DNA of 53,925 bases from Thermoplasmata archaeon (GTDB lineage: Archaea; Thermoplasmatota; Thermoplasmata; Lutacidiplasmatales; UBA184), in the NCBI GenBank assembly GCA_027315455.1, contig DAHUXZ010000012.1, positions 1 through 53,925 on the forward strand. The letters are read 5' to 3'. The notes under the pieces were generated by a model, which searched no databases, had not been told where the DNA came from, and saw nothing but the letters and a program-made list of their open reading frames with translations. Of this stretch, positions 3,726 to 53,925 are shown piece by piece. A program made the translations under genes and the position numbers. How positions within the stretch are numbered: position 1 is the stretch's first letter; each line of letters starts with the position of its first letter.

Positions 3726-4271
3726 ATGATCGGCGCAACCGAGATGGAAACCGGGGAGCATGCCCTACCCGAGCTCGCCGAGGAGAAGCCGACGCCCCAC
3801 GGCCTGTCGATGGTGGTGTTCTCCGGGGAGCTGGACAAAGCGCTCGCGGCGTTCATCATCGCCAACGGCGCCGCCGCGATGGACCTGCCGGTCACGATGT
3901 TCTTCACCTTCTGGGGGTTGAACATCCTCCGGAAGGACGGGCCGGTGACCTTCGCGTCACCGAAAGACTCCACGGAGAAGATGTTCGGCATGATGATGCC
4001 GAAGGGGGCGAAGCACCTCAAGCTCTCTCAGCTGAACATGGGGGGCCTCGGCACCCGCATGATGAAGCGCGTGATGACCCGCAAGCACGTCATGGATCTC
4101 CCGACGCTGGTCAAGACGGCCCAGGAGCAGGGCGTGCGCTTCGTCGCGTGCACGATGTCGATGGACCTGATGGGCATCCGAAAGGAGGAGCTGATCTCCG
4201 GCATCGACTTCGGAGGCGTCGGGAGCTTCATCGACGCGGCCGACTCGAGCCGCATCAGCCTGTTCGTCTGA
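3726..4271 (+). CDS. dsrE2: DsrE2-family sulfurtransferase-like protein
   Basis: DsrE/DsrF-like family, DsrE2 subgroup, 181 residues. DsrE-type proteins carry or transfer sulfane sulfur, usually with TusA. The conserved core is visible: FSGELDKALAAFIIANGAA (32-50), the hydrophobic FFTFWGLNIL stretch (59-68), MMMPKGAKHL, and a candidate active cysteine at 142 in the conserved ACTMSMDLMGI segment. ATG 3726, preceded by AAGGGG, was chosen over the longer in-frame opening at 3591, whose extra 45 residues are unconserved in character. It sits 280 bases upstream of tusA and the hdr genes in the same direction, with a palindrome between, so it may be separately transcribed but functionally linked. 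Confidence 0.88.
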   Translation: MIGATEMETGEHALPELAEEKPTPHGLSMVVFSGELDKALAAFIIANGAAAMDLPVTMFFTFWGLNILRKDGPVTFASPKDSTEKMFGMMMPKGAKHLKLSQLNMGGLGTRMMKRVMTRKHVMDLPTLVKTAQEQGVRFVACTMSMDLMGIRKEELISGIDFGGVGSFIDAADSSRISLFV

Positions 4272-4472
4272 ACCACTTCCCTCGGCCCCGCCCGGGTCGA
4301 CCGTGGCGGGGCCGGCTAAGCCGTCCCGCCGTCGAGCTCACGGAGCGCATCCCCATTCTCGCCCCGGACGTGCTCCGCGCCGCCGTGCGCCGGCCCCGCA
4401 CGTGCCGTGCGTTGGCGGCTCCCGCGTGTCGCGTCGCACCTCGCTCGCGGCAGTGTCTACCGCCGAAGAAAT

Positions 4473-4486
4473 GGACAATTGTCCAC
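4473..4486. promoter_or_regulatory. 14-base palindrome before the tusA-hdr operon
   Basis: TGGACAATTGTCCA is a perfect palindrome, AT-rich at its centre in an otherwise GC-rich gap. It lies about 45-65 bases before the candidate tusA starts and just upstream of a possible TATA-like CATAAG (about 4514-4519). That position suits an operator for a dimeric regulator of the sulfur-carrier/Hdr operon. The operon itself encodes a small winged-helix protein (9676-9927) that could bind it (inference). Confidence 0.5.
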
Positions 4487-4551
4487 AGCGTCAGCCCGAT
4501 TTCACCTTTCCCTCATAAGCCCCGGACCGAATGTCTGTTCGCGAGGTAACG

Positions 4552-4806
4552 ATGAACGCAGAGGAGCTCCGCCAGCTGAAGGTCGACAAGGTCGTGGATG
4601 CCCGCGGGGTCGCCTGCCCCGGTCCTCTCCTCGAGGCCAAGCGAGCGGTCACCGGCGTGCCGATCCGCGGCGTGATGGAGGTCGTTTCCTCGGACGAGGG
4701 GACGACCGAGGACGTCCCGCTCTGGGCGAAGAAGGTCGGCCACGAGTACCTGGGAACCGTCGCGGACGCCGGGCTCTGGCACATCTACCTCCGGCGGGGG
4801 AAGTAG
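4552..4806 (+). CDS. tusA: TusA-family sulfur carrier protein
   Basis: 84-residue TusA/SirA-like protein that carries a persulfide on a single cysteine. The hallmark ARGVACPGPLLEAK lies at about residues 17-30 with the carrier cysteine at 22. The segment EVVSSDEGTTEDVPLWAKKVGHE matches the family's second half. ATG 4552 has GAGGT 5 bases upstream; ATG 4531 would add 7 residues. The stop codon overlaps the GTG of the next gene by one base (TAGTG), so it is in an operon with the MvhD-like and HdrA genes. DsrE2-TusA-Hdr proximity is known in sulfur-oxidising prokaryotes such as Metallosphaera. Confidence 0.9.
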   Translation: MNAEELRQLKVDKVVDARGVACPGPLLEAKRAVTGVPIRGVMEVVSSDEGTTEDVPLWAKKVGHEYLGTVADAGLWHIYLRRGK

Positions 4807-5225
4807 TGGCGACGGCGGACACGCGGTCGCCGAGGATCCTCGTCTTCTCGACGAACGCGATCTCGGACATGGGCATCGACCTCGCGGGGAGCGCCCACAT
4901 GGCGTACTCCCCGTCGGTCCAGGTGATCCCCGTACCCTGCTCCGGCGGGATCAACCCGGCGTGGATCGTCCACGCCGTGAAGGCCGGTTTCGAGGGCGTG
5001 TTCGTGGCGGCCGACGGAGCGGAGTGCGCGCTCCTGTCGGACTGTGTGTCGCGGAGCGCGAAGGTTGTCGAGCGCGCGCAGGAGCTCCTTCGGGCCGACG
5101 GGCTCGACCCGCAGCGGGTCAAGATGGCCGCGATCTGCTCGGTGTGCGCCGAGCCGTTCGTGAACCACATGAAGCAGTTCGGCCGGTCGCTCGCGGCACT
5201 CCCGATGGCCGGGGCGGAGGCGTAG
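4806..5225 (+). CDS. MvhD/FlpD-like subunit, degenerate iron-sulfur site
   Basis: 139 residues of the MvhD family, which normally carries a [2Fe-2S] cluster and passes electrons from a hydrogenase or other donor to HdrA. Fold markers are present (LVFSTNAISDMGIDLAG, VPCSGGINP, VFVAADGAEC). Cysteines occur at 45, 74, 80, 111 and 114. The family's first motif, a CC..C cluster near residues 14-20, is replaced by STNAISD, so the usual cluster is probably absent or ligated differently. GTG 4806 overlaps the tusA stop, and the next gene begins at the base after this stop. The pairing with a GltD-containing HdrA suggests this subunit no longer has to relay hydrogenase electrons (inference). Confidence 0.8.
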   Translation: MATADTRSPRILVFSTNAISDMGIDLAGSAHMAYSPSVQVIPVPCSGGINPAWIVHAVKAGFEGVFVAADGAECALLSDCVSRSAKVVERAQELLRADGLDPQRVKMAAICSVCAEPFVNHMKQFGRSLAALPMAGAEA

Positions 5226-7958
5226 ATGGCCGCAGCCGTGACGGCCCGGGACTACGATGTCCTGGTGGTCGGCGCCGGCGTGGGCGGGATGGAGTCCGCC
5301 CTCTCCCTTGGCGACATGGGCTTCAGCGTCCTCGTCGCCGAGAAGGAACCGAGCGTCGGTGGGCGCATGATCCTCCTCAGCAAGGTCTTCCCTACCCTCG
5401 ACTGCGCGAGCTGCATCTCGACGCCCAAGATGGCGGCCGTGAACAACCACCCGAACGTCCGGACGCTCGTCTACTCCGAGATCGACGACATCACTCCCCG
5501 GCCCGAGGGCGGCTACCTCGTGCACCTCACGCGCAAGCCGACGTTCATCGACCCGGCGAAGTGCACCGGCTGTGCGCTCTGCGAGACGGCCTGCACCGTG
5601 GCGGTTCCGGACGAGTTCAACTACGATCTGGCCGCTCGGCATGCGGCCCACATCGCGTTCCCGCAGGCGGTCCCCAAGAAGGCCGTGATCACGCGCACCG
5701 GGACCTCCCCGTGCTCGTTCACGTGCCCCGCGGGGGTCAAGCCGCACGGGTACATCTCCCTCGTGCGGGCCGGTCGCTTCGACCAGGCGTTCCGCCAGCA
5801 CCTCGAGGACGCGCCGCTGGTGGGAGTCCTCAGCCGGGCGTGCTACGCGCCGTGCGAGGACCAGTGCACCCGCGGGGAGCTCGAGGGAACGGTCGCCATC
5901 CGGGGGATCAAGCGGTTCATGGCGGACCGCTACTACGCGAGCCACCCGGCGCCCGAGTACGGTCCCCCGGAGGCCCGCCAGGGCAAGCGGGTCGCCATCG
6001 TAGGCTCGGGGCCGACCGGCCTCGCCGCCGCGTTCGTTCTCGGCCGGTCCGGCTATGACGTCACGATCCTTGAGGCCGAGTCGGAGGCGGGCGGAATCCT
6101 CCGCTGGGGGATCCCGTCCTACCGTCTGCCGAAGGACGTGGTCGCCCGGGACATCCAGAACATCACGGCCCTCGGCGTCCGCATCGAGCTCAACCACCGT
6201 GTCGGTTCGCTGGCGGAGCTCCGGGCCCAGGGCTTTGACGCCGTGCTCGTGGCGACCGGCGACAAGGGCGGGCGCAAGCTCGCGGTTCCCGGGGAGGAGT
6301 TCGCCGGCGTCGTCGACGCGATGGAGTTCCTCCGGTCGATCAACTCCGGCGAGGCCCCCGACGTGGCGGGGAAGAAGGTCGTCGTCATCGGCGGCGGGAA
6401 CGTCGCGATCGACTCGGCCCGCAGCGCGCTCCGGCTCCACGCGGCCTCGGTGCGGATGTTCTGCCTCGAGTCGCGGAGCGAGATGCCGGCGCATCCGTGG
6501 GAGATCCGCGAGGCCGAGGAGGAAGGGGTCCAGATCACCAACTCCTGGGGCGTGGGGGAGGTCCAGGGCCGCGACCGGAAGGTGACCGGCCTCGACCTGA
6601 TCCGGTGCACGGCGGTCTTCGACTCCGAGCATCGTTTCCGACCCACGTTCGACCGGACGATCCAGGAACGCGTCGAGGCCGACGTGGTCATCACCGCGAT
6701 CGGGCTCGCGCCGAACACCTCGGCCTTCACTGCCGACGTCGAGCTCAACCGGAACGGGACGCTGAAGGTCCACCCGGAGACGCTGGCCACCTCGGTGCCG
6801 GGCATCTTCGCCGGGGGCGATGCCGTGACCGGCCCCTCGATGATCGTGACCTCCATCGGCCAGGGGAAGCGGGCGGCGTTCTACATCGACCGCTACCTGA
6901 GCGGGCTCCCTCTCGACGGGCTCCGGTACGACGACCGGCTTCCGGTCGCCGACCGGAAGGCCGTGGCGGCCCGGGCCGCGGAAGGGGGAACCTCGCTGCC
7001 GCCGGTCCCGATCCTTCGTCGTCCGGCCGCGGCCCGCCTCCAGTCGTTCCACGAGTACGAGGCCGGGTTCAGCGAGTCGGAGGCGCGTGACAGCGCGCGC
7101 CGCTGCCTCGACTGCGGAGTGTGCTCGGAGTGCCGGGAGTGCGTGGCGGCCTGCCCGGCCGACGCCATCGACCTCGGAATGCGCCCGCGCCACGAGACGG
7201 TCACGGTCCGCTCGGTCGCCCTCGCGACCGGCTTCTCACCGACGGACGCCCGCAAGAAGCCCGCCTGGGGGTTCGGCCGGTTCCCGAACGTCATCAACGG
7301 CCCGCAGATGGACCGCATCCTCGCGCCGACGCGTCCGTTCAACGCCGTCGTCCGGCCGTCGGACGGCAAGGTCCCGGCGAACGTCGCCTTCGTCCTCTGT
7401 GCCGGCTCCCGGGACGAGCAGGTCGGTAACCGCCTCTGCTCCCGGGTCTGCTGCATGTACTCGATGAAGCAGGCCCAGCTCCTGATGGGGTCGATCCCCA
7501 CGGCGGACGTCACGATCTACTACATCGACATCCGCGCGTTCGGCAAGGGCTACGAGGAGTTCTACCAGCAGACGAAGGGGATGAGCGTCTACTTCACGAA
7601 GGGAAAGGTCTCCCGGATCGAGGAGACCGACGGCCAGGACCTCCTCGTGCACTACGAGGACATCGAGGGCGGGGGCGGCCAGAAGGTCGCGCGCCACGAC
7701 CTGGTCGTCCTCGCGACCGGCCTTGAGCCGAACACGGGCGCGTTCCGGCTCTTCCCCGAGGGCGCGCCCGAGAGGGACGCCTACTCCTACGTCCGGGAGA
7801 TCGACGAGGAGCTCGAGCCCGGGAAGACGAGCCTGGATGGGGTCTTCGTCATCGGCTCGGCGACGGCGGTCCGGGACATTCCGGACACCATCGTTCACTC
7901 CGAGGCCGCGTCGGCCCAGATCGCGGCGTTCCTCAAGCGGGGGGAGGCGAGGGCATGA
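5226..7958 (+). CDS. hdrA: HdrA-type flavoprotein with internal GltD-like NAD(P)H module
   Basis: 910-residue fusion. Residues 10-150 are the HdrA FAD half (GAGVGG at 16-21; TLDCASC at 58-63), with a CxxCxxCxxxC cluster at 113-123. From about 160 to 560 it switches to a GltD-like module: cysteines 163/167 and 206/210/214, then two dinucleotide folds (GSGPTG at 260-265, GGGN at 389-392) typical of NADPH-dependent glutamate synthase small chains. A cysteine-rich ferredoxin segment (627-643) follows, then the rest of HdrA (660-905) with CAGSRDEQ, CSRVCCMYS and the IDIRAFGKGYEE block. Canonical HdrA is one flavoprotein that bifurcates electrons with a hydrogenase partner; here NAD(P)H is the likely donor or acceptor (inference). 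It overlaps the next gene by ATGA. Confidence 0.88.
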   Translation: MAAAVTARDYDVLVVGAGVGGMESALSLGDMGFSVLVAEKEPSVGGRMILLSKVFPTLDCASCISTPKMAAVNNHPNVRTLVYSEIDDITPRPEGGYLVHLTRKPTFIDPAKCTGCALCETACTVAVPDEFNYDLAARHAAHIAFPQAVPKKAVITRTGTSPCSFTCPAGVKPHGYISLVRAGRFDQAFRQHLEDAPLVGVLSRACYAPCEDQCTRGELEGTVAIRGIKRFMADRYYASHPAPEYGPPEARQGKRVAIVGSGPTGLAAAFVLGRSGYDVTILEAESEAGGILRWGIPSYRLPKDVVARDIQNITALGVRIELNHRVGSLAELRAQGFDAVLVATGDKGGRKLAVPGEEFAGVVDAMEFLRSINSGEAPDVAGKKVVVIGGGNVAIDSARSALRLHAASVRMFCLESRSEMPAHPWEIREAEEEGVQITNSWGVGEVQGRDRKVTGLDLIRCTAVFDSEHRFRPTFDRTIQERVEADVVITAIGLAPNTSAFTADVELNRNGTLKVHPETLATSVPGIFAGGDAVTGPSMIVTSIGQGKRAAFYIDRYLSGLPLDGLRYDDRLPVADRKAVAARAAEGGTSLPPVPILRRPAAARLQSFHEYEAGFSESEARDSARRCLDCGVCSECRECVAACPADAIDLGMRPRHETVTVRSVALATGFSPTDARKKPAWGFGRFPNVINGPQMDRILAPTRPFNAVVRPSDGKVPANVAFVLCAGSRDEQVGNRLCSRVCCMYSMKQAQLLMGSIPTADVTIYYIDIRAFGKGYEEFYQQTKGMSVYFTKGKVSRIEETDGQDLLVHYEDIEGGGGQKVARHDLVVLATGLEPNTGAFRLFPEGAPERDAYSYVREIDEELEPGKTSLDGVFVIGSATAVRDIPDTIVHSEAASAQIAAFLKRGEARA

Positions 7959-9679
7959 CCGGCCGAAAGCTCGGCGTCGTCGTCTGCCAGTGCGGCGGCA
8001 ACATCTCCGACTACGTCGACGTCGAGAAGGTGCGCGCGGAGGCGGCGAAGGACGGGGACGTCGTTTCCTCGCAGGTGCAGATGTTCGCCTGCTCGGACGC
8101 CGCGCAGCAGTCCGTGATCCAGGAGATCCGGGAGAAGAAGCTCGACGGGATCGTCGTCTGCTCCTGCTCCCCGAAGCTCCATACGGCGACGTTCCGGGCG
8201 ATGGCCGAGCGCGCCGGCCTCAACCCCTACGAGTACACCCAGGTCAACCTGCGCGAGCAGTGCTCCTGGGCCCACACCCACGACCGGGCCGCCGCGACGG
8301 AGAAGGGGGTCCGCCTCGTGCGCGCCGGGATCGCGAAGACCGCGCTCTCGCAGCCGCTCGAGAAGATGCGGGTCGAGACGTTGCCCCAGACCCTCGTGAT
8401 CGGTGCCGGCGTCGCCGGGCTGCGGGCGGCGCTCGCCCTCTCCGACCTCGGTATCTCGGTCCACCTCGTGGAGAAGGCCGACCATCCGGGCGGGCAGGTC
8501 CGGCGCTGGGGGACCCTCTTTCCCAACGACAAGGTCGGCCAGGCGCTGATCGAGGACCTCGTTGGGCGCGTGACGGCGCGCGACAACATCATGCTCTACC
8601 TCAACAGCGAGCTCGTCGAGAAGTCCGGGCGCGTGGGCGCCTTCTCGGTCACGATCCGGGCCGCCAACGGCGAGCGCATTCCCCTGAACGTGGGGGCGAT
8701 CGTCGTCGCGACCGGGTTCGAGCCCTACACCCCGGCGCCCGGGGAGTTCGGTGCCGGGCTCGACGGCGTCATCACGCTTCCCGAGCTCAAGGAGCGGCTC
8801 GCGGCGACCGCTGGCCCTCTCACGCACCGTGGCCAGCCCGTCCGTTCGATCGCCTACGTCTACTGCGTCGGCTCCCGCCAGCCGGCGGAGGAGGGGACGA
8901 GGCGGACCTACTGCTCCCGTTACTGCTGCAGCGCGACCTCGCACCTCGCGACGGTCGTCACGGGGCTGGACCCGAAGATCCACCAGTTCCACCTCTTCCG
9001 TGACGTGCGGACCTACGGCAAGTACGAGGCCCTCTACGAGCGGGCCCTCAAGAGCGGGTCCCTCTTCCTCCGCTACTCGGAGGAGGACCCTCCGGCCATC
9101 ACGCGCGAGAACGGCGGCCTCGTGGTCCGCGTCCACGACCGCCTCCTCGCCGGCGAGGAGGTCGAGATCCGTCCCGACCTGGTCGTCCTCGTGACCGGCA
9201 TGGTCCCGAGGGCGAACGACGACCTCGTACGGGTCCTCAAGGTGCCCATCGGGCCGGACGGCTTCTTCCGGGAGGTCCACGTCAAGCTGCGCCCCGTCGA
9301 GACCATCGTCGACGGCGTCTACATCGTCGGGACCGCGCAGGGTCCGAAGAACGTCGCGGAGAGCGTCGCGACGGCCCTCGCCTCGGTCTCGAAGGCGGGC
9401 GCGTTGCTTCTGAAGGGCTACGTCGACCTCGACCCCCTCGTCGCCCGCGTGGACCCGACGCGGTGCACCTGGTGCGGTGACTGCCAGACCGCGTGCCCCT
9501 ACGGGGCGATCGACGAGGTGGAGTACGGCGACCGGCACATCGCGCAGGTCAACGCCGTGCTCTGCAAGGGCGAGGGGGCGTGCGTCCCCGCCTGCGCGAA
9601 GGCGGCCATCTCCGTCCAGGGCTACACCAACGAGCAGATCACCTCGATGATCGATGCGCTCGCCAAGGAGGTCGCATGA
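7955..9679 (+). CDS. hdrA: HdrA-like FAD/iron-sulfur subunit
   Basis: 574-residue HdrA. The N-terminal iron-sulfur domain (VVVCQCGGNIS, FACSD, CSCSPKLH, NLREQCSW; residues 1-115) is followed by an FAD fold (GAGVAG near 149-154), the HdrA-specific CVGSRQ and YCSRYCCS motifs, and two 4Fe-4S motifs at the C terminus (CTWCGDCQTACP and CKGEGACVPACAK). Unlike the preceding paralogue it keeps the N-terminal Hdr domain but has no NAD(P)H module, so the two may form a heterodimeric HdrA core (inference). Its start overlaps the preceding stop and its stop overlaps the next start, both as ATGA, which implies translational coupling and fixed stoichiometry. Confidence 0.92.
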   Translation: MTGRKLGVVVCQCGGNISDYVDVEKVRAEAAKDGDVVSSQVQMFACSDAAQQSVIQEIREKKLDGIVVCSCSPKLHTATFRAMAERAGLNPYEYTQVNLREQCSWAHTHDRAAATEKGVRLVRAGIAKTALSQPLEKMRVETLPQTLVIGAGVAGLRAALALSDLGISVHLVEKADHPGGQVRRWGTLFPNDKVGQALIEDLVGRVTARDNIMLYLNSELVEKSGRVGAFSVTIRAANGERIPLNVGAIVVATGFEPYTPAPGEFGAGLDGVITLPELKERLAATAGPLTHRGQPVRSIAYVYCVGSRQPAEEGTRRTYCSRYCCSATSHLATVVTGLDPKIHQFHLFRDVRTYGKYEALYERALKSGSLFLRYSEEDPPAITRENGGLVVRVHDRLLAGEEVEIRPDLVVLVTGMVPRANDDLVRVLKVPIGPDGFFREVHVKLRPVETIVDGVYIVGTAQGPKNVAESVATALASVSKAGALLLKGYVDLDPLVARVDPTRCTWCGDCQTACPYGAIDEVEYGDRHIAQVNAVLCKGEGACVPACAKAAISVQGYTNEQITSMIDALAKEVA

Positions 9680-9927
9680 CCGGACCGGCGGTGCTCCGCA
9701 ACCTCAACGAGGTGTTCCGGGACGAGATGGTCGAACGCGACCGCATCGCGGAGGTGCTCCGGCGGGGGCCGCTCACCCTCCCCGAGATCGCCGCCCGCGT
9801 CGGCGCGCCGGTCTTCGAGGCCACGAAGTGGGTGATGGCGATGCGGCGGTTCGGGCGGATCCGGGAGCTTCCGAAGGCCCGCGCGGACGACTACTTCCGC
9901 TACGAGCTCGTCGAGGAGGGCCGATGA
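9676..9927 (+). CDS. small winged-helix protein inside the hdr operon
   Basis: 83 residues. The stretch RIAEVLRRGPLTLPEIAAR (about 23-41) followed by a second helix and FGRIRELPKARADDYFRYEL resembles a winged helix-turn-helix with a wing. No exact family recognised. It overlaps both neighbours by ATGA, so it is made together with the complex. It could be the operon's own regulator, with the palindrome at 4473-4486 as a candidate site. It could also be a structural small subunit, since canonical sHdr operons also carry a small uncharacterised gene. No metal-binding cysteines. Confidence 0.75.
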   Translation: MTGPAVLRNLNEVFRDEMVERDRIAEVLRRGPLTLPEIAARVGAPVFEATKWVMAMRRFGRIRELPKARADDYFRYELVEEGR

Positions 9928-10232
9928 AGGTCGACACGGGCTTCCTGGACGCCCTGAAGCTGGGCGGCGAGTTCGACGCCCGCCTCTGCATCAACTGCGG
10001 GACCTGCACGGCGCTCTGCCCGCTCGGGCTCGAGATCCTGCCCCGTCGTCTCTTCCGCCACGCCCTCCTCGGCGACCGCGAGAGGGTCCTCGGCGAAACG
10101 GACGCGATCTTCAGCTGCCTGCTCTGTCGCCTGTGCGAGGCGAACTGCCCCGCCGGCGTGCACATCGCCGAGAACGTCCGTGCGCTCCGTGCGGTGCTCA
10201 ACCAGGGGGTCCAGGGCCTCGCGGAGGCCTGA
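9924..10232 (+). CDS. hdrC: HdrC-like 4Fe-4S subunit
   Basis: 102 residues with two four-cysteine 4Fe-4S motifs: CINCGTCTALCPLG (about 22-35) and CLLCRLCEANCPAG (about 65-78). This is the HdrC pattern that links HdrA to the catalytic HdrB. The ATG overlaps the previous stop (ATGA), and the hdrB start follows after 9 bases. Length and motif spacing match stand-alone HdrC rather than a fused HdrD. Confidence 0.9.
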   Translation: MKVDTGFLDALKLGGEFDARLCINCGTCTALCPLGLEILPRRLFRHALLGDRERVLGETDAIFSCLLCRLCEANCPAGVHIAENVRALRAVLNQGVQGLAEA

Positions 10233-10241
10233 GGAGGGACG

Positions 10242-11210
10242 ATGCCGGTACCGATCGCCAGTACGCTGGGAATGCTGGGGGACAACCTCCGAAAGCGGGG
10301 CAGCGCGCTCCCGCTGGGCCGGCGCGCCGCTGTCGCCTGGACGCGGGGGCTCGACATCCCGCGCGGCGGGGAGACGGTCCTCTACACGGGCCAGATGTGG
10401 CAGATGGCCCCCGCGATCAACGCGATGACCCACCAGCTCGCCCGCTTCGAGGGGTCGCGGCTCTCCGGGCTCTTCGGGTTCGCACGGACGATGAACCGCC
10501 TCGTGAACCTCACCCCGCTCCTGGCCCGAACGTCGGCGGCCGAGCGGAAGGCCTACACCGACCGCCTGCGCAACATCGCCCGCCTCCTCAAGGCGGCGGG
10601 CGTCGCGTTCGGCTACCTCTACGAGGACGACCTCTACGCGGGCGGCCTCGCCCACGACGAAGGGCTCGATGCGGTGTTCGTCGACCACGCCCGACGGATC
10701 CAGGCCGTCCTGGGCAAGCACGGGGTCAAGCGGGTGATCACCGTCGACCCCCATACGACCAACATGCTGCGCAGCGTCATCCCGAAGGCCGTCCCCGGGT
10801 TCGCCGTGGAGGTGAAAAGCTACCTCGAGGTGCTCGCGGAGCGGGCGCCGCCGGTCCGGCAGCCGCTCGGCCGGACCGCCACGATCCACGACTCCTGCGT
10901 GTACGCGCGCTACGAGGGGGTCCTCAAGGAGCCCCGCACGCTCCTCGCCCGCGGCGGGGTCCGGCTCGACGAACCGGAGCTGGCGGGGTCGCTCACCTTC
11001 TGCTGCGGTGGACCGGCCGAGATGCTCTTCCCGACCCGCTCCGCGGACGTGGCCCGCCGTCGGGTCGCGCAGCTCAAGGCCGCCAACCCCGAGGTGATCA
11101 CCGCCTGCCCGCTCTGCCTCGCGAACCTGTCGCGGGTGGCGGAACCGGACGTGCACATTCGGGACATCTCGGACTACCTGGTCGAGGCGTACGCTCCCGC
11201 CGAGGCGTGA
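10242..11210 (+). CDS. hdrB: HdrB-like CCG-domain subunit, first CCG motif lost
   Basis: 322 residues. In methanogen HdrB, two CCG (CX31-39CCX35-36CXXC) motifs bind the non-cubane 4Fe-4S clusters that reduce the disulfide. Here the second motif is intact: DSCVYARYEG, FCCGGPAEM and ACPLCLAN. The expected first motif region reads YTGQMWQMAP without cysteines, so only one cluster can form in the usual way. The N terminus has an additional helical part (1-45). SD-like AGGAGG lies about 8 bases before ATG 10242. Its place after hdrC supports a role as the catalytic thiol/persulfide subunit. The substrate is unknown; it need not be the CoM-CoB heterodisulfide. Confidence 0.85.
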   Translation: MPVPIASTLGMLGDNLRKRGSALPLGRRAAVAWTRGLDIPRGGETVLYTGQMWQMAPAINAMTHQLARFEGSRLSGLFGFARTMNRLVNLTPLLARTSAAERKAYTDRLRNIARLLKAAGVAFGYLYEDDLYAGGLAHDEGLDAVFVDHARRIQAVLGKHGVKRVITVDPHTTNMLRSVIPKAVPGFAVEVKSYLEVLAERAPPVRQPLGRTATIHDSCVYARYEGVLKEPRTLLARGGVRLDEPELAGSLTFCCGGPAEMLFPTRSADVARRRVAQLKAANPEVITACPLCLANLSRVAEPDVHIRDISDYLVEAYAPAEA

Positions 11211-27149: not shown

Positions 27150-28583
27150 TCACAGGTGCCAGGACGGCCCGCCGTAGCCGTCCGGGAGCTTCGGCGGGGT
27201 CGCTTCGCCGAACGGCTCGGGCCGGGGGATCGGGCTGCGGCCGAGCTTCCGCGCGAGGTACGCGTCGATCGCGACGGCGGCCGCGCTCCCGGCGGACATC
27301 GCGTAGACCACGGACTTCCCGCCAGAGGCGAACACGCCCTCGAGGTCCGTCGCCCATCCCGGCCGCCCGCCTTCCGGCCAGCCGTGGGAGCTCACCTTGA
27401 GGTCGAGCTCGGCCGGGAACCCGGAGAGGTCCGCCCGTTCCCCGACGGCCTCGATCACGGTGTCGCAGGGGATCGTCTCCTCCGTGCCGGGGACCACCTC
27501 CACCGTAGGCCGTCCTCTCGGGTCCGGCGGCCCCGCGCGGGTCGCCTGGACGACGAGCCCTTCGACGCGCGTCGTGCCGAGGATGCGGACCGGGCTCCGC
27601 TGGTAGGCGAAGCGGACCCCTTCGACGGTCGCGTCCCGGCGCTCCTCCCCGCCCGCCGGCATCGCCTCGGGGCCCTGGCGGTAGAGGACCGTGACGCTCC
27701 CGGGCGAGGCGAGCCGGAGGCTCGAGCGCGCCGCGTCGAGCGCGACGTCCCCGCCGCCGATGACGCAGACCGTGCGTCCCTTCCGGCCGAGGACCCCTTC
27801 GGGGCCCTTGTTGACCGCGAGGAGGAACTCGAGCGCCGAGTAGACCCCCGGGAGCTCCTCCCCCGGGAGGCCGAGCCGCCGCGGGTCCGAGGCGCCGATC
27901 GCGATGTAGACGGCGAGGTAGCCGTCGGCCAGGAGGCTCTCCGGGGTGAAGTCGACGCCGGCCCGCTTGCCGACCACGAAGACCACGTCGAGCCCGCGGA
28001 ACCGCGCGAGGTCCCGGTCGAGCTCCTCGCCCTCGAGGTGGTACTTCGGGATCGTCTCCATCTGTCCGCCGAGGAACGGCTTCTCCTCGAGGACCGTGAC
28101 GGAATAGCCCCGCAGCCCGAGCTCCCAGGCGGCCATGAGCCCCGCGGGGCCGCCCCCGATGACCGCGACGCGCTCCGGGCGGCGGGGGGCCCCCACGTAG
28201 GCAAGGTCCGACCGGCCCAGCTCGACGGCGGCGCGCTTGAGATGACGGATCGCGACCGGCGCGCCCCGTTCGCCCATCACGCAGGCGTCCTCGCAGTAAT
28301 GGTAGCAGGTCTTGCAGAGGACGGTCGCGAGCGGGTTGTCGCGCACGGTGAGCCGCGCGGCGTCGTCGAAGCGCCGCTGGGCGAGGAGCTGGATGTACCC
28401 CCGGCAATCCTGCGTGATCGGGCAGGCCTGGACGCACCAGGGCATCGCGCAGTTGAGGCACCGCTGTGCCTCGAGGACCGCCTCGTCCGGGGTGTAGGGA
28501 TGGAGGACCTCGCCGAAGCCGGCGTCCCGCTCCTCCTTCGTTTCCTCGGGGATCGGCGTTCGTGTGTACCGGAACCCGCCCAC
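27150..28583 (-). CDS. GltD-like NADPH-dependent oxidoreductase (stand-alone)
   Basis: 477 residues, like the small subunit of glutamate synthase. N-terminal iron-sulfur domain: CLNCAMPWCVQACP (about 42-55) and CKTCYHYCEDAC (about 90-101). The FAD fold starts VAVIGGGPAGLMAAWELG (about 139) and the NADPH fold VCVIGGGDVALDAARSS (about 283). No large GltB subunit in the window, so it may serve as an NADPH:ferredoxin-type or sulfide/thiol-related oxidoreductase instead. It is a paralogue of the module inserted into HdrA at 5226-7958. GTG start on the minus strand. Confidence 0.88.
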   Translation of the reverse strand: MGGFRYTRTPIPEETKEERDAGFGEVLHPYTPDEAVLEAQRCLNCAMPWCVQACPITQDCRGYIQLLAQRRFDDAARLTVRDNPLATVLCKTCYHYCEDACVMGERGAPVAIRHLKRAAVELGRSDLAYVGAPRRPERVAVIGGGPAGLMAAWELGLRGYSVTVLEEKPFLGGQMETIPKYHLEGEELDRDLARFRGLDVVFVVGKRAGVDFTPESLLADGYLAVYIAIGASDPRRLGLPGEELPGVYSALEFLLAVNKGPEGVLGRKGRTVCVIGGGDVALDAARSSLRLASPGSVTVLYRQGPEAMPAGGEERRDATVEGVRFAYQRSPVRILGTTRVEGLVVQATRAGPPDPRGRPTVEVVPGTEETIPCDTVIEAVGERADLSGFPAELDLKVSSHGWPEGGRPGWATDLEGVFASGGKSVVYAMSAGSAAAVAIDAYLARKLGRSPIPRPEPFGEATPPKLPDGYGGPSWHL

Positions 28584-47648: not shown

Positions 47649-48947
47649 GTGTCCCCCTCCCCCCTCGCCTCCGAGGTGCCGATGGCCGCTCCGTTGCCGG
47701 AGGCGGCGGGCACCGACTCGCGCCCACGGCCTGGGACGCGCCGGCGGGGGGCCCTTCCCGAGCTCGTCGGCGTCGAGGTCTCCCTCGCGACCGGTCCGCT
47801 CCAGGACCTCGAACGGACCGTGGCCGCGATCCCGTCGGATCGGCTCGCGGGCCTTTTCGACGCGACACCGGAGCTCCTCGAGCTGGTGGCGCTGAGGACC
47901 TGCCACCGGATGGAGCTCTGGGCCTGGACCGCATCGCCCACGACGAGCCTTGCCGCCCTCCAGGAGCTCGTGCCGTCGGGGGTGCCGTGCCGTCGCCTCA
48001 TCGGGACCGAAGCGCTCCGCCACCTCTACCGGGTGACCGCCGGGCTCGAGTCGATCGCCGTGGGGGAGCGGGAGGTCCGGGACCAGGTCCGCCTCGCGGC
48101 CGGTCGCGTCCTTACCCGTCAGCCCCGCCCGGTCCTCCGACCGATATTCCTCGGGGCCGCGGAGGCCGTCGATCGAATCCTCCCGTCGGTCCCGGCGAGC
48201 CGGTCGATCGCCGCCCTCGCCGCAGCGAAGGTCCTCGAGGAGTCCCCGGTACCGTTCCCGCGGGTCCTCATCGCCGGGTCGGGCGTCGTCGGGAGCGAGG
48301 CCGCGGAGCTCCTGGCGAGCTCCGGTCGGCTCACGATCCTCTACCGCACCCGTCCCCCCGACGAAGGGTTCTTGCGCGCCACCGGCGCCCGCGCGGCCCC
48401 GTGGTCGGCCCTCGCCGATGAGCTTCGACTCGCGGACGCCGTGATCCTGGCGACGAAGTCGGGAGACCGGCTGCTGGGCCCCGAGACCCTGTACGGGCGG
48501 GACCGGCCGCTTCTCGTCGTCGACCTCGGCATGCCCCGGAACGCGGCCCCTTCCCTCGGTGCCCGCCCGCACGTCCGCCTCATCGACCTGGACGGCCTGC
48601 GCCCCCGGGCCCGACCCCCCGGCGCGCCGCCGGTCGAGGCGGAGGTCGACCGCGCCGCGGACGAGGGGGAGGTCGCGGTGAGGGCGCACGCCCTCGAGGC
48701 GTGGGTGGACGAGTTCCGGCGCGCCGTCGAGGACAAGCGACGGGAGATCCTGGACGCGGCCGCGCCGTTCCTGGGTCCCCTGACGGCGGAGCAGCAGCTC
48801 GCCGTCGACCGCCTTACCCGTCGGCTCGCCACGCAGCTGACGCACGGCCCGACGCGGGGCCTCCGCTCGCTCCCCTCGGGCGCCGCCGGCGACGAGCTGC
48901 GGGAGTGGCTCCTCGCGTGGCTGCCGCCGCCCGACGGACGCACGTGA
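47649..48947 (+). CDS. hemA: glutamyl-tRNA reductase
   Basis: 432 residues. First enzyme of C5 haem synthesis: reduces glutamyl-tRNA to glutamate-1-semialdehyde with NADPH. The catalytic cysteine lies in VALRTCHRMELWAW; further motifs are YRVTAGLESIAVGEREVRDQVR, VLIAGSGVVGSEAAELL (NADPH fold) and VVDLGMPRNAAPSLG. GTG 47649 is 30 bases after a TATA-like box; ATG 47682 is an alternative. Its stop overlaps the hemC GTG (GTGA). Confidence 0.93.
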   Translation: MSPSPLASEVPMAAPLPEAAGTDSRPRPGTRRRGALPELVGVEVSLATGPLQDLERTVAAIPSDRLAGLFDATPELLELVALRTCHRMELWAWTASPTTSLAALQELVPSGVPCRRLIGTEALRHLYRVTAGLESIAVGEREVRDQVRLAAGRVLTRQPRPVLRPIFLGAAEAVDRILPSVPASRSIAALAAAKVLEESPVPFPRVLIAGSGVVGSEAAELLASSGRLTILYRTRPPDEGFLRATGARAAPWSALADELRLADAVILATKSGDRLLGPETLYGRDRPLLVVDLGMPRNAAPSLGARPHVRLIDLDGLRPRARPPGAPPVEAEVDRAADEGEVAVRAHALEAWVDEFRRAVEDKRREILDAAAPFLGPLTAEQQLAVDRLTRRLATQLTHGPTRGLRSLPSGAAGDELREWLLAWLPPPDGRT

Positions 48948-49852
48948 GCGGCAGCGTCCGGGTGGGGACCCGGCGGAGCGCGCTCGCCCGGGCCCAGACC
49001 GAGCTCATCGTCCGGGCGCTCTCCCGCGTGACGCCCGGCGCGACGTTCGAGGTCGTCCCGCTCGCCACCGATGGGGACCGCACCCGGGCGACCTCGGGCC
49101 CGCTCGATTTCACCGATGCGATCGACCGCGCGCTCGAGCGCAGGGAGGTCGACCTTGCCGTCCACAGCGCGAAGGACCTGCCGGCGCGGCTGCGTCCTTC
49201 CGTGGGCATCGCAGCGGTCCCGCGCCGCGAGGACCCGCGGGACTGCCTCGTGCTCCGGCGACCGGGCCGCCTCGCCGACCTCCCCGACGGAGCCCGGGTC
49301 GGGTCGAGCAGCGTGCGGCGGCGGGCCCAGCTCGCGCGGGCGCGGCCGGACCTCGAGGTGGTCGAGCTGCGCGGGAACGTGGACTCGCGGATCGCCCGCG
49401 TGCGGGCCGGCGAGATCGACGGGGCGGTCCTGGCCGTGGCGGGGATCCGCCGGCTCGGCCGCTCGGAGGACATCGCGGAGGTCCTGCCGACCCGGAGGTT
49501 CCTGCCCGCGCCCGGCCAGGGGGCCCTCGCCGTGACAATCCGGGTCGAGGACCGTCGCATGCGGCGTCTCGTGGCTCCCCTCGATCATTCCCCGTCGCAC
49601 CGGGCCGTCGTCGCCGAGCGGGCGTTCTCCGAAGCGGTGGGTGGGGACTGCACGGTTCCGCTCGCCGCCCTGGCCCGTGTCCGCGGGCGCTCGCTCTCGC
49701 TGCGGGCCGAGCTCTTCGGCCCGGAGGGGGAGCTGCGATGGCACGGAGCCGCCGTCGGCCCGGCGACCTCGGCGCGTCGGCTCGGCGTCCGGCTCGGCCG
49801 TTCGGCCCGGCGCCACGGACCAATGGCGCCTCCCCTCCGGAGCGGACCGTGA
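48944..49852 (+). CDS. hemC: hydroxymethylbilane synthase (porphobilinogen deaminase)
   Basis: 302 residues. Condenses four porphobilinogens. Motifs: RVGTRRSALARAQTE, DLAVHSAKDLPARL (catalytic Asp), RVGSSSVRRRAQLARARPDL and the dipyrromethane-cofactor cysteine in VGGDCTVPLAAL. GTG overlaps the hemA stop by 4 bases, and its own stop overlaps the hemD GTG. Confidence 0.94.
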   Translation: MSGSVRVGTRRSALARAQTELIVRALSRVTPGATFEVVPLATDGDRTRATSGPLDFTDAIDRALERREVDLAVHSAKDLPARLRPSVGIAAVPRREDPRDCLVLRRPGRLADLPDGARVGSSSVRRRAQLARARPDLEVVELRGNVDSRIARVRAGEIDGAVLAVAGIRRLGRSEDIAEVLPTRRFLPAPGQGALAVTIRVEDRRMRRLVAPLDHSPSHRAVVAERAFSEAVGGDCTVPLAALARVRGRSLSLRAELFGPEGELRWHGAAVGPATSARRLGVRLGRSARRHGPMAPPLRSGP

Positions 49853-50625
49853 GCCCGCGGCGGACGGCGCCGCGCCGTCACCGCATCGTGCTCGTCGGTG
49901 CGGCCGCGACCTTCCCGCGCCTGCCCGCTCGCCTCGGCCGGGCGGGGGTCCGCCTCGACCGGATCGTCGTCCTCCAGCCCCGTGCGGTCCCGGCGGGCGC
50001 CCCGATGTCCCGGTGGCGACGGTTCGGTGCCTGCGACACGCTGGTCGTCACGAGCCGGGCCGCCGTCGACGCGTTCCTCCGTCGTCCTTCCGTCCTCGCC
50101 CGGCTGCGCGCGGAGGGTCGCCCCGAGGTGCTGGCGATCGGGCCCGGCACTCGGGAGGCGTTGCGCGGCGTCGGGCTGCCTCCCACCTGGACGGCCAGCA
50201 CCGGGGGCTCGGCCGCGATCGGACGGCACCTCGCCCACCGGCCCGCGCGGCGCATCCTGTACCCTCGCTCGGCGCGCGCCGGCTCGGCGCTCCCCCGGGC
50301 GCTCCGTCGCGCGGGCCACCGGGTGCTCGACCTCGTCGTCTACGACCTCGCGCCTCCCCGACCGCTCGGGCCGCGGGCCCTCGGGCAGTTGCGCGGCGCC
50401 GACCGGATCGTCCTGACGAGCCCGTCGGCGCTCGATTACCTGGTCGCCTCCGTTCCCGCGCCGGCCATCGCTCTCCTCGGTCCGGGCCGGAGGGTCGTCG
50501 CGATCGGGCCGCGGACCGCGCGGGCCGCCCGGGCCCGGGGGCTGCGCGACGTCCGGTGCGCTCCCAGCGTCGCGGAGCAACGCTTTTCGCGCTACCTGCT
50601 CCGGGAGGTGCGCGATGTCCCCTGA
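49849..50625 (+). CDS. hemD: uroporphyrinogen-III synthase
   Basis: 258 residues. Cyclises hydroxymethylbilane with inversion of ring D. The sequence is poorly conserved as usual for the family, but the two-domain pattern is visible: RHRIVLVGAAATF at the N terminus, DTLVVTSRAAVDAFL, RILYPRSARAG, DRIVLTSPSALDYLV and RVVAIGPRTARAAR. Position in the operon and length fit. The GTG start overlaps the hemC stop; its end overlaps the hemB ATG by 11 bases. Confidence 0.85.
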   Translation: MSPRRTAPRRHRIVLVGAAATFPRLPARLGRAGVRLDRIVVLQPRAVPAGAPMSRWRRFGACDTLVVTSRAAVDAFLRRPSVLARLRAEGRPEVLAIGPGTREALRGVGLPPTWTASTGGSAAIGRHLAHRPARRILYPRSARAGSALPRALRRAGHRVLDLVVYDLAPPRPLGPRALGQLRGADRIVLTSPSALDYLVASVPAPAIALLGPGRRVVAIGPRTARAARARGLRDVRCAPSVAEQRFSRYLLREVRDVP

Positions 50626-51604
50626 CCGCTCCCCGGCGCTCCGCCTCCGCCGCCTTCGTCGCACCGTCGCCCTCCGCGAGGCGGTCGCCGAGAGCCGGGT
50701 GACCCCGGGCGACCTCATCGAGCCGATCTTCGTCCGGCCGGGAGGCGGGCCCGCCGAGCCGATCCCCTCGCTCCCCGGGGTGTTCCGGCGCACGCCAGCC
50801 GATGCGGCGGTCCATGCCGCGGGTGCCGTCGAGGACGGGGTCGGGGCCGTGCTGCTCTTCGGCCTTCCCCGGCGCAAGGATCCGCGGGGCCGCGAGGCGG
50901 CCCGTCCCGACTCGGCCGTGGCCTCGGCGATCCGGGCGATCAAGGCGCGGCAGCCGGGCGCGCTCGTCATCACGGACGTCTGCCTCTGCGCGTACACGAC
51001 CCACGGTCACTGCGGGATCCTCCGAAAGGGCGAGGTCGACAACGACGCGACCCTCCCGGCTCTCGCGCGCGTCGCGGTCGCGCACGCCCGCGCCGGGGCG
51101 GACCTCGTCGCCCCGAGCGCGATGATGGACCATCAGGTCGCGGCGATCCGGGAGGCCCTCGACGCCGCCGGTTTTGCCGATGTGGGTGTCCTGGCGTACA
51201 GCGCGAAGTTCGCGTCGGCGTTCTACGGGCCGTTCCGGGAGGCCGCGGACTCGGCGCCGGCCGAGGGGGACCGGCGCGGCTACCAGCTCGACGTGCGCAA
51301 CGCCCGCGAGGCGCTTCGGGAGATCGAGGTCGACCTCGCGGAGGGGGCCGACCTCGTCATGGTCAAGCCGGCGCTTCCCAGCCTCGACATCCTGGCCCGC
51401 GCCCGGGCGCGCTTCGACGTGCCGCTCGTGGCCTACCAGGTCAGCGGGGAGTACGCGATGCTCAAGGCGGCGGCCGCCCGGGGCTGGCTCGACGAGGGGC
51501 GCGCGGCGCGCGAGTCCCTTGCCGCCATCCGGCGGGCCGGTGCGGACCTCATCATCACCTACTACGCCCGGGCGATCGCCCGGGAAGGCACGGAGGCCCC
51601 ATGA
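50615..51604 (+). CDS. hemB: porphobilinogen synthase
   Basis: 329 residues. Joins two 5-aminolevulinates. The cysteine-type zinc site DVCLCAYTTHGHCG (about 128-141) is present. Schiff-base lysines lie in YSAKFASAFYGPFREA and VMVKPALP. Together these indicate the zinc-dependent form. Start overlaps hemD by 11 bases; the stop overlaps hemQ as ATGA. Confidence 0.95.
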   Translation: MSPDRSPALRLRRLRRTVALREAVAESRVTPGDLIEPIFVRPGGGPAEPIPSLPGVFRRTPADAAVHAAGAVEDGVGAVLLFGLPRRKDPRGREAARPDSAVASAIRAIKARQPGALVITDVCLCAYTTHGHCGILRKGEVDNDATLPALARVAVAHARAGADLVAPSAMMDHQVAAIREALDAAGFADVGVLAYSAKFASAFYGPFREAADSAPAEGDRRGYQLDVRNAREALREIEVDLAEGADLVMVKPALPSLDILARARARFDVPLVAYQVSGEYAMLKAAAARGWLDEGRAARESLAAIRRAGADLIITYYARAIAREGTEAP

Positions 51605-52326
51605 CGGCAACGGCGGGCGACGCGCCCGAATCGGCGGAGCCCCGCGACTGCATCAAGTACACTTTCCTTCACCTCCGTCCCGAGTGGAGACGCCTGCCGG
51701 CGGAGGAGCGGCGCCGCGGGCGCGCGGCGTTCGTTGGGGTCCTCGAACGCCCGCCGTCGGGGCTCCTTCTGCGGACCTACTCGCTCGTCGGCACCAAGGC
51801 CGGCGTCGAGATGCTCGTCTGGTCGATCGCGCCGGCCCTCGAGGCGATCCAGGAGCTCCACGCCCGCCTGATGGGGACCCCGCTCGGCGGCTACCTCGAC
51901 GTCCCCCACTCGTACCTCGGCCTCGCGCGGAGGTCGGAGTACCTCGGAGAGCACGCGCACGGCGGGGAAGGGGAGTCGGGGCGGCGACGCCCGTTCGACC
52001 GGCCGTATCTGTTCGTGTACCCGTTCGTCAAGCGGCGCGAGTGGTACGGCCTCCCGTTCGAGGAGCGCCGGCGGATCATGGGGGAGCACTTCCGCGTCGG
52101 CCACCGCTTCCCGCGCGTGCAGATCCACACCGGCTACTCCTTCGGGATCGACGACGCCGAGTTCATCCTCGCGTTCGAGGGAGACTCTCCGGCGGAGTTC
52201 ATGGAGCTGGTCGAGGCGCTGCGGCCGAGCGAGGCGAGCCGCTACACCCAGCTCGAGACGCCGATCTTCACGGCCCTGAAGGCCGCCCCGGCCCGCATGG
52301 TCGAGCTGGCCGAGGGGATCCCGTGA
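51601..52326 (+). CDS. hemQ: HemQ-like coproheme decarboxylase (chlorite-dismutase fold)
   Basis: 241 residues. Member of the chlorite dismutase/HemQ family, which converts coproheme to haem b. Family signatures: RPYLFVYPFVKRREWYGLPFEERRRIMGEHF, the proximal-His region RVQIHTGYSFGIDDAEFILAFEGD and EASRYTQLETPIFTAL. Its place between hemB and hemL in a haem operon argues for the haem role rather than chlorite detoxification. Implies a coproporphyrin-dependent route; the coproporphyrinogen oxidase and ferrochelatase genes are not in the window. ATG overlaps the hemB stop. Confidence 0.9.
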   Translation: MTATAGDAPESAEPRDCIKYTFLHLRPEWRRLPAEERRRGRAAFVGVLERPPSGLLLRTYSLVGTKAGVEMLVWSIAPALEAIQELHARLMGTPLGGYLDVPHSYLGLARRSEYLGEHAHGGEGESGRRRPFDRPYLFVYPFVKRREWYGLPFEERRRIMGEHFRVGHRFPRVQIHTGYSFGIDDAEFILAFEGDSPAEFMELVEALRPSEASRYTQLETPIFTALKAAPARMVELAEGIP

Positions 52327-53636: not shown

Positions 53637-53925
53637 CGGTGCGCGATCGCCTCGTGCGGGCCCTCCGGGGAGAGCCGACGGACACGACGCCCATCTGGCT
53701 GATGCGCCAGGCGGGGCGGTATCTTCCCGGGTACCGGGCGATGCGGGAACGGCGTTCGATCCTCGAGGTCGCGACGACCCCGGCGCTCGCCGCGGAGGTG
53801 ACGCTCGAGCCCCTCCGGCGCTTCGATGTCGATGCGGCGGTGGTCTTCGCCGACATCTCCCTGCCGTTCGCCGGCCTGGGGGTCGAGTTCCGCATCGACC
53901 CCGGGGTCGGGCCCGTCGTCCCGCA
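53633..53925 (+). CDS. hemE: uroporphyrinogen decarboxylase, cut by the window edge
   Basis: First 97 residues only. N-terminal signature PIWLMRQAGRYLPGYRAMRERRSILE (about 21-46) and DAAVVFADISLPFAGLGVEF identify HemE, which decarboxylates uroporphyrinogen III to coproporphyrinogen III. TTG 53633 overlaps the hemL stop (TTGA) and has GGAGG about 8 bases upstream; GTG 53639 is the alternative. The remaining 240 or so residues lie to the right. Confidence 0.92.
   Translation, partial: MTVRDRLVRALRGEPTDTTPIWLMRQAGRYLPGYRAMRERRSILEVATTPALAAEVTLEPLRRFDVDAAVVFADISLPFAGLGVEFRIDPGVGPVVP

Follow-up and report, generated by a model that had tools for sequence, protein, structure and literature searches.

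The window analysed here, a contig of 53,925 nucleotides from a Thermoplasmata archaeon (DAHUXZ010000012.1), carries at positions 3726-11210 eight genes on the plus strand that encode a DsrE2, a TusA, a variant of MvhD, an HdrA with an inserted GltD module (HdrA-GltD), a second HdrA (HdrA'), a small winged-helix protein, an HdrC and an HdrB with one CCG site. We propose that the proteins of this operon may form one cytoplasmic, NAD(H)-linked Hdr complex that exchanges electrons with sulfane sulfur borne by TusA and DsrE2, most likely in the oxidative direction in this archaeon. This reading draws on the gene set and its conservation, cofactor ligands, the loss or retention of key residues and the genome context, and we consider it about evenly poised between right and wrong.

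The window genes were assigned to families by Pfam and NCBIfam profile matches:

3726..4271, plus strand: dsrE2 (P0001), DsrE2-type sulfurtransferase (Pfam DrsE_2, 6e-58), with Cys142 at about 4149-4151
4531..4806, plus strand: tusA (P0002), sulfur carrier (Pfam TusA, 3.5e-18), with Cys29 of the CPGP motif at about 4615-4617
4806..5225, plus strand: mvhD-like gene (P0003), GTG start (Pfam FlpD/MvhD, 7e-26), with C45, C74, C80, C111 and C114
5226..7958, plus strand: hdrA-GltD (P0004), HdrA core with inserted GltD, with K748 at 7467-7469
5637..7172, plus strand: the GltD insertion, residues 138-649 of P0004 (PRK12771), with C413-L414-E415 at 6462-6470
7955..9679, plus strand: hdrA' (P0005), second HdrA, with a profile match that spans P0005 and His330 at the K409 position
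9676..9927, plus strand: small winged-helix protein (P0006), from its AlphaFold2 model, without conserved Cys
9924..10232, plus strand: hdrC (P0007), HdrC-type ferredoxin with two [4Fe-4S]
10242..11210, plus strand: hdrB (P0008) (Pfam CCG), one CCG site consisting of C219, C254, C255, C289 and C292

Read from the DNA, tusA and the mvhD-like gene overlap by 1 base, the mvhD-like gene and hdrA-GltD abut with 0 bases between them, three overlaps of 4 bases follow and 9 bases precede hdrB; the original prediction, which had been made from the sequence of the window, had put these junctions at one to 11 bases and was nearly right. The gap between dsrE2 and tusA is 259 bases, and TusA may start at 4552 instead of 4531. 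The Pfam match of P0006 stays below the threshold; AlphaFold2 nevertheless models the protein as a winged helix (mean pLDDT 87.7), and Foldseek matches the model to generic winged helices. The set of eight genes on one strand, as originally predicted, is thus confirmed by the profile matches, by this model and by the same arrangement in all 42 contigs that reach far enough.

Conservation and distribution of the operon

A scan of the genome collection for HdrA-GltD returned 332 stretches that encode a relative, from which 79 distinct loci were examined. Genes were counted in the 47 of these loci that have the closer form, chosen by about 45% identity or more together with an adjacent hdrA' or a contig end; this set leaves out the window itself (L001) and a degenerate second copy (L010). 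Wherever the contig reaches, tusA (42/42) and mvhD (42/42) are found upstream and hdrA' (45/45) downstream; hdrC is present in 43 of 44 loci and the winged-helix gene in 30 of 44. A DsrE-family gene lies within 9 kb of the operon in 29 of 30 loci. The arrangement searched for across genomes is therefore kept for tusA, mvhD, hdrA-GltD and hdrA', and the HdrC+HdrB end is found in only 23 of 43 loci.

By title, carriers of the closer form include Thermoplasmata, Desulfotruncus, Desulfallas, Desulfotomaculum, Myxococcales, Actinobacteria, Bacteroidales and Spirochaetes, and further Zixiibacteriota, LCP-89, Caldisericia, Krumholzibacteriia and an Alphaproteobacterium. Named carriers are Desulfotruncus arcticus and alcoholivorax, Desulfallas sp. 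Bu1-1, Desulfotomaculum copahuensis and Petrimonas sp. IBARAKI; the nearest named relative (L002, labelled Thermoplasmata) is 91% identical over HdrA-GltD. The 31 loci that encode a more distant HdrA-GltD (Moorella, Desulfobacterales, Chloroflexi, Aminicenantes and others) gave no tusA match. The HdrA-GltD frame of these loci has at least 1,123 residues in 27 of the 31, and the four remaining frames (827-993 residues) touch or lie near contig ends.

Within the class Thermoplasmata, 13 of 250 genomes have the closer HdrA-GltD (at least 65% identity), all of them in the family of the window, and 20 others have only relatives of 34-42% identity. The closer form is present in 8 of 28 genomes of the same genus. 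The same gene order recurs in four more genomes from two other genera of the family, with the winged-helix gene not called in one (L129) and a DsrE2 of only 33-34% identity in two (L127, L128). The genome of L006 has, besides L006 itself, the degenerate copy L010 (8857-15022): its HdrA-GltD is whole but divergent (65% identity, YRR type, see below), its TusA-like part has no Cys and continues in frame into a winged-helix part, and its DsrE2-like gene is in two pieces and lacks the Cys; mvhD, hdrA', hdrC and hdrB were not found in this locus. The union of the TusA-like and winged-helix parts hints weakly that both proteins belong together.

When a tree is built from the HdrA core, with GltD removed and HdrA-GltD open reading frames below 700 residues left out, the tusA-linked proteins fall into a single clade (support 0.947) that is distinct from Qmo, sHdrA and the larger HdrA-GltD proteins; this clade also holds three contig-edge loci and the L010 row, which is misassigned. 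Pairwise distances correlate with those of HdrA-GltD at 0.91 for HdrA', 0.81 for TusA, 0.77 for MvhD and 0.75 for DsrE2 (no background control). The Thermoplasmata sequences group together (support 0.959, including L034, which is titled 'bacterium'), and a transfer of the operon from bacteria into Thermoplasmata is plausible, since the sisters of this group are L009 (titled 'bacterium') and L013 (Caldisericia).

In the 30 loci with both flanks, neighbours within 9 kb include regulators of ArsR type (10 loci) and CsoR type (2), DsrC-family proteins (5) and a second DsrE type (4), which point to a link with sulfur and to regulated use. Persulfide sensing by the ArsR-type neighbours was considered and is not proposed: their Cys pattern varies and by eye does not fall at the places known from SqrR/SoxR. 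The five DsrC-family loci are all, by title, from Bacteroidales/Bacteroidetes, and L029 has only a one-Cys form. In five Bacteroidales/Bacteroidetes loci (L028, L030, L033, L040 and L068) the operon is close to two genes for class-V aminotransferases, to DsrM/K-like genes (by eye) and to a DsrC that carries two Cys at its C-terminus, although none of the five genomes has a NIR_SIR match.

Key residues of the two HdrA proteins

The GltD-type profile PRK12771 matches residues 138-649 of P0004 with 485.6 bits, under its cut-off of 516, and HdrA matches lie on both sides. The insertion, which is the feature of type III HdrA, is seen in 42 of 42 aligned HdrA-GltD sequences, and the cluster Cys are kept in 42/42 or 41/41 rows. 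The AlphaFold2 model of P0004 has a mean pLDDT of 82.5; the best 50 Foldseek rows are structures of NfnABC, StnABC, Nfn, dihydropyrimidine dehydrogenase and GltD, with no HdrA among them, and the HdrA relation of P0004 therefore rests on sequence.

The importance of K409 in HdrA is described in PMC12054007. K748 of HdrA-GltD aligns with K409 of M. wolfeii HdrA and is Lys in all 41 rows with a residue there; the E356 position is Asp in 39 of 42 sequences and Glu in three. HdrA' has His at the K409 position in 36 of 41 sequences and Lys in none (the misassigned L010 row is left out), keeps the N-terminal and C-terminal cluster Cys and lacks the inserted ferredoxin. As the lysine is kept in HdrA-GltD and absent from every HdrA', the flavin of HdrA-GltD is, judged by these residues, the only one of bifurcating type in the putative complex, and a candidate site of bifurcation.

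The pyridine-nucleotide site

The phosphate of NADP is held by a YRR triplet in NfnB; DsrL-2, which has YRR, is active only with NADP(H), while DsrL-1, in which the triplet is replaced (including S-L-E-like triplets) and which comes mostly from sulfur oxidisers, prefers NAD(H) (PMC7596348). At the same site the tusA-linked HdrA-GltD sequences fall into a YRR type (26/42) and an LE type (16/42), and the window has CLE (C413-L414-E415). Because LE replaces YRR, as in DsrL-1, the HdrA-GltD of the window is predicted to use NAD(H), which narrows the NAD(P)H of the original prediction. We applied the YRR rule because the GxGxxG/A rule for NAD versus NADP (PMC12054007) does not discriminate here: all 42 sequences have G, G and A at its three positions. 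The type switches 7 times on a 41-row tree from which one LE sequence is missing; 200 shuffles gave 12.3 switches on average and never fewer than 8.

Sulfur carriers, MvhD variant and end module

Cys29 of TusA is kept in 43 of 44 aligned sequences and Cys142 of DsrE2 in 36 of 37; both sets include L010, the degenerate copy without these Cys. Solved relatives of DsrE2 are 3pnx and 2qs7. The MvhD variant lacks the N-terminal CxWC of solved MvhD chains (aligned to 5odc_D and others), and its five other Cys (C45, C74, C80, C111 and C114) are invariant (43/43).

The downstream end of the operon comes in two main forms: 23 of 43 loci have HdrC+HdrB and 19 have a QmoC-like protein that combines HdrC with cytochrome b; no locus has both, and one (L024) has neither, with a short frame there that resembles the end of a QmoC-like protein. 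In a Myxococcales locus counted among those with HdrB (L017, 5951-7381), the end module takes a third form, by eye a fusion of HdrC with an HdrB that has two CCG sites. The eight Cys of HdrC are kept in 39 of 39 sequences. All 17 selected relatives share the five Cys of the single CCG site of HdrB, and they also share D169, P170 and H171 in the N-terminal half, where no Cys is conserved. Since 19 of 43 loci have a QmoC-like subunit in place of HdrB, the sulfur reaction cannot depend on HdrB, and HdrB cannot be the universal sulfur site. The proposed link from NAD(P)H through HdrA to TusA or DsrE2 stands in so far as several bacterial phyla as well as Thermoplasmata share the union of carriers and GltD and keep the reactive Cys.

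Genome setting

The genome of the window (G000; the window is contig C3) has 1.98 Mb in 87 contigs and is 94% complete, so that absences are provisional. Contig C4 (27000-52724; L102, L122) has an sHdr-type cluster with LbpA, lipoate-ligase-like, TusA, two DsrE2-like and SQR-like genes, all named by eye except LbpA (GCV_H match); it brings two more HdrB/HdrC pairs (subunits by eye). Next to the cluster lie an AprA match and, by eye, an AprB-like gene, on the same contig. Five GCV_H-family proteins are encoded on contigs C4, C14, C33 and C46, there are two COX1 matches, and contig C35 (L081:4452-10119) encodes a NiFe hydrogenase, apparently of sulfhydrogenase type, the cluster of which includes a cyclic-nucleotide-binding-like gene (operon and names by eye). 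NIR_SIR has no match in this genome. The original prediction had no hydrogenase, no lipoate-binding protein and a single hdrB/hdrC pair; this is true of the locus and false for the genome, and of the genes it had wanted looked for only sulfite reductase has no match. Because of the sHdr-LbpA cluster, AprA, terminal oxidases and hydrogenase, the archaeon is, from its gene content, probably a sulfur oxidiser.

Across the 40 operon genomes, sHdrB1 is present with at least 79% identity in 8, with matches of 28-31% in 8 others; AprA is over the cut-off in 20, and NIR_SIR is found in 18, COX1 in 22 and McrA in none; a link to methanogenesis, which had been named beforehand as refuting, is thereby rejected. 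As these counts include genomes with and without oxidases and sHdr, the operon is a sulfur-linked module that is not tied to sHdr.

Two paralogues (L103:9829-10518 and L104:2742-3446) resemble, by eye after a GCV_H match, LbpA fused to a TusA-like domain; they have Arg at the expected lipoylated Lys and each adjoins an SseA-type rhodanese gene. Elsewhere in the window, a stand-alone GltD-type oxidoreductase gene is encoded at 27150-28583 (minus strand, by eye), and a run of haem biosynthesis genes, apparently including a HemQ-like member at 51601-52326, at 47682-53925 (plus strand, by eye only).

Proposed mechanism and alternatives

In the proposed complex, Cys29 of TusA and Cys142 of DsrE2 would carry sulfane sulfur in or out as a protein persulfide. 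The Hdr core (MvhD variant, HdrA-GltD, HdrA', HdrC and HdrB) would pass electrons between the carrier sulfur and NAD(H) on the GltD module, with HdrA' as a plain relay, and the HdrC/HdrB end would reach a third partner, a disulfide here and quinone in the QmoC-like relatives. The sulfur site may lie away from HdrB, given that 19 of 43 loci have a quinone-type subunit in its stead, perhaps on the MvhD variant encoded beside tusA. In the archaeon of the window, sulfide or thiol-bound sulfur would be converted to TusA persulfide, with reduction of NAD+, and would so feed the sHdr pathway, the genes for which lie elsewhere in the genome. The potential of the step from sulfide to bound sulfane sulfur would lie between those of NAD+ and menaquinone, which would suit oxidative bifurcation; the reductive direction would suit anaerobes.

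Several observations weigh against this reading. TusA also serves biosynthesis, as a known relay. Of the 8 operon genomes that have sHdr, 7 are of LE type, but all belong to one clade of closely related sequences, and the association of LE with COX1 is not significant (Fisher P 0.32; L068 without cofactor type). The 8 genomes with 28-31% matches included, 32 of the 40 operon genomes have no sHdrB1 match of at least 79% identity, and even in the family of the window sHdrB1 is present in only 6 of 13 genomes with the closer HdrA-GltD and has no match in 7. The QmoC-like loci (19/43) do without HdrB altogether. Finally, the carriers include anaerobes and sulfate reducers, and elsewhere the direction need not be oxidative.

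The best alternative is a reductive version, in which NAD(P)H, together with quinol in the QmoC type, would reduce the sulfane sulfur of TusA/DsrE2 to sulfide, in sulfur reduction or to dispose of excess persulfide. With 26 of 42 members of YRR type, and thus predicted to use NADPH, this is a serious though unlikely option. In DsrL-2, the reducing cofactor is NADPH (PMC7596348). A DsrC with two Cys is encoded at five Bacteroidales loci, together with DsrM/K-like genes (by eye). Carriers include Desulfotruncus, Desulfallas, Desulfotomaculum and a Petrimonas, which are sulfate- or sulfur-reducing. It fits the window less well, with its LE type and a genome that has sHdr-type genes, AprA and two COX1 and no NIR_SIR match.

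A more elaborate reading joins both directions in a three-way, flavin-based bifurcation, which we regard as rather unlikely. Here the MvhD variant would dock TusA in the place that the hydrogenase takes in methanogens, with sulfane sulfur as the middle couple, NAD(H) or NADPH as the low and disulfide or quinone as the high couple; the complex would run one way in oxidisers and the other way in reducers, with a corresponding switch between NAD and NADP. If true, this would to our knowledge be the first bifurcating enzyme acting on a sulfur carrier protein.

It is improbable that the operon encodes a partner of AprAB or of another sulfur enzyme, built like Qmo but with a pyridine-nucleotide module, while TusA and DsrE2 merely pass on sulfur nearby. 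Two HdrA, MvhD and a swappable HdrBC/QmoC end do mirror Qmo, a qmoAB-hdrCB set adjoins aprBA in L124, and qmoAB with hdrB was seen in L123 (both by eye). AprA, over the cut-off in 20 of the 40 operon genomes, is not over it in the other 20; Desulfallas and Desulfotruncus have a separate Qmo set, with the QmoA/QmoB of which HdrA-GltD and HdrA' do not group, and no apr gene was seen in the window. We give even less credence to a biosynthetic sulfur supply (tRNA thiolation, Fe-S or cofactor assembly), in which NAD(P)H would free TusA sulfur for a biosynthetic acceptor: the relay function of TusA and the class-V aminotransferase (cysteine-desulfurase-like) genes and DsrC/TusE-type proteins at several Bacteroidales loci would suit it, but its patchy presence within one genus (8/28 genomes) is unlike an essential biosynthetic step, and the ArsR-type neighbours in 10 of 30 loci suggest conditional use. 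An assembly artefact or chance neighbourhood, for which the 87-contig draft could speak and which as a chimeric GltD insertion had been named beforehand as refuting, was not borne out and is refuted by the same insertion in 42/42 aligned sequences and the same neighbours in 42/42 reaching contigs, including those of named strains.

If the NAD(H)-linked complex exists as proposed, cytoplasmic sulfane-sulfur carriers would be tied directly to the pyridine-nucleotide pool, a link that has been shown for DsrL (PMC7596348). It could provide NADH from sulfur without reverse electron flow, or serve reductive sulfur disposal, and YRR versus LE would be a sequence rule that predicts the cofactor and perhaps the direction.

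Comparison with known systems

The layout of sHdr loci is hdrC1-hdrB1-hdrA-hyp-hdrC2-hdrB2. Membership of the operon in this group was rejected: it has one hdrC, one hdrB and two hdrA, with no lipoate-binding protein among its eight genes. It thus differs from sHdr by the absence of LbpA and of a second HdrB/HdrC pair and by the presence of GltD, MvhD and a second HdrA, and P0004 and P0005 branch apart from sHdrA (one sHdrA in the tree). What the two share are Hdr-like subunits with TusA and DsrE proteins nearby (PMC6067878).

Qmo resembles the operon in its two HdrA-type proteins, its MvhD part and an end module that is QmoC-like or HdrC+HdrB (PMC10504309). It differs from the operon, which has the GltD module, the linkage to TusA/DsrE2 and no apr neighbours in the window: no apr gene was recognised by eye among the window genes, AprA being encoded instead on contig C4. 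HdrA-GltD and HdrA' are on branches separate from QmoA/QmoB (Qmo of two species only), and membership was rejected. The operon also does not belong to HdrABC-MvhADG, as the locus has only the MvhD variant, no MvhA or MvhG, and its HdrB has one CCG site, not two.

An HdrA with an inserted GltD has been published as the type III HdrA of methane-metabolising archaea (PMC12054007) and is also found in Moorella (PMC9430772), in both cases with NAD(P)H as a proposed partner. These proteins are described with mvhADG or MetVF, and TusA is mentioned in neither paper; in our tree the relatives from Moorella and Methanophagales fall outside the clade linked to tusA. HdrL and FlxABCD-HdrABC also count among the close known systems, as does Dred_1325-1330 of D. 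reducens, in which HdrC and HdrB are encoded together with MvhD and two HdrA proteins, one of them large and with putative domains for NADH binding, and for which electron bifurcation to DsrC was proposed (PMC4759654). That locus has a formate dehydrogenase gene, no TusA, SirA or DsrE is mentioned with it, and its HdrA with NADH domains is reported to be far larger and to contain several partial HdrA domains (PMC4759654), whereas the window has an HdrA-GltD of 910 residues and a separate HdrA' of 574. No FlxABCD subunits were recognised by eye around our operon (no model search was made). DsrL likewise is a GltD-type NAD(P)H:acceptor oxidoreductase of sulfur metabolism with a split into YRR and non-YRR forms, but its partner is DsrAB (PMC7596348); here the module is built into HdrA, in a genome without a NIR_SIR match.

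Among the open-access papers searched, no description of tusA with mvhD and a GltD-containing hdrA was found, nor any earlier one of the fixed union with TusA and DsrE2, the swap of the end module or the switch between NAD and NADP. The original candidate for an undescribed system is therefore better seen as a variant of systems already known, in which the union with the sulfur carriers, the end-module swap and the cofactor switch may be new: GltD within HdrA (PMC12054007, PMC9430772) and Hdr loci with NADH domains, among them the similar one of D. reducens (PMC4759654), are already in print.

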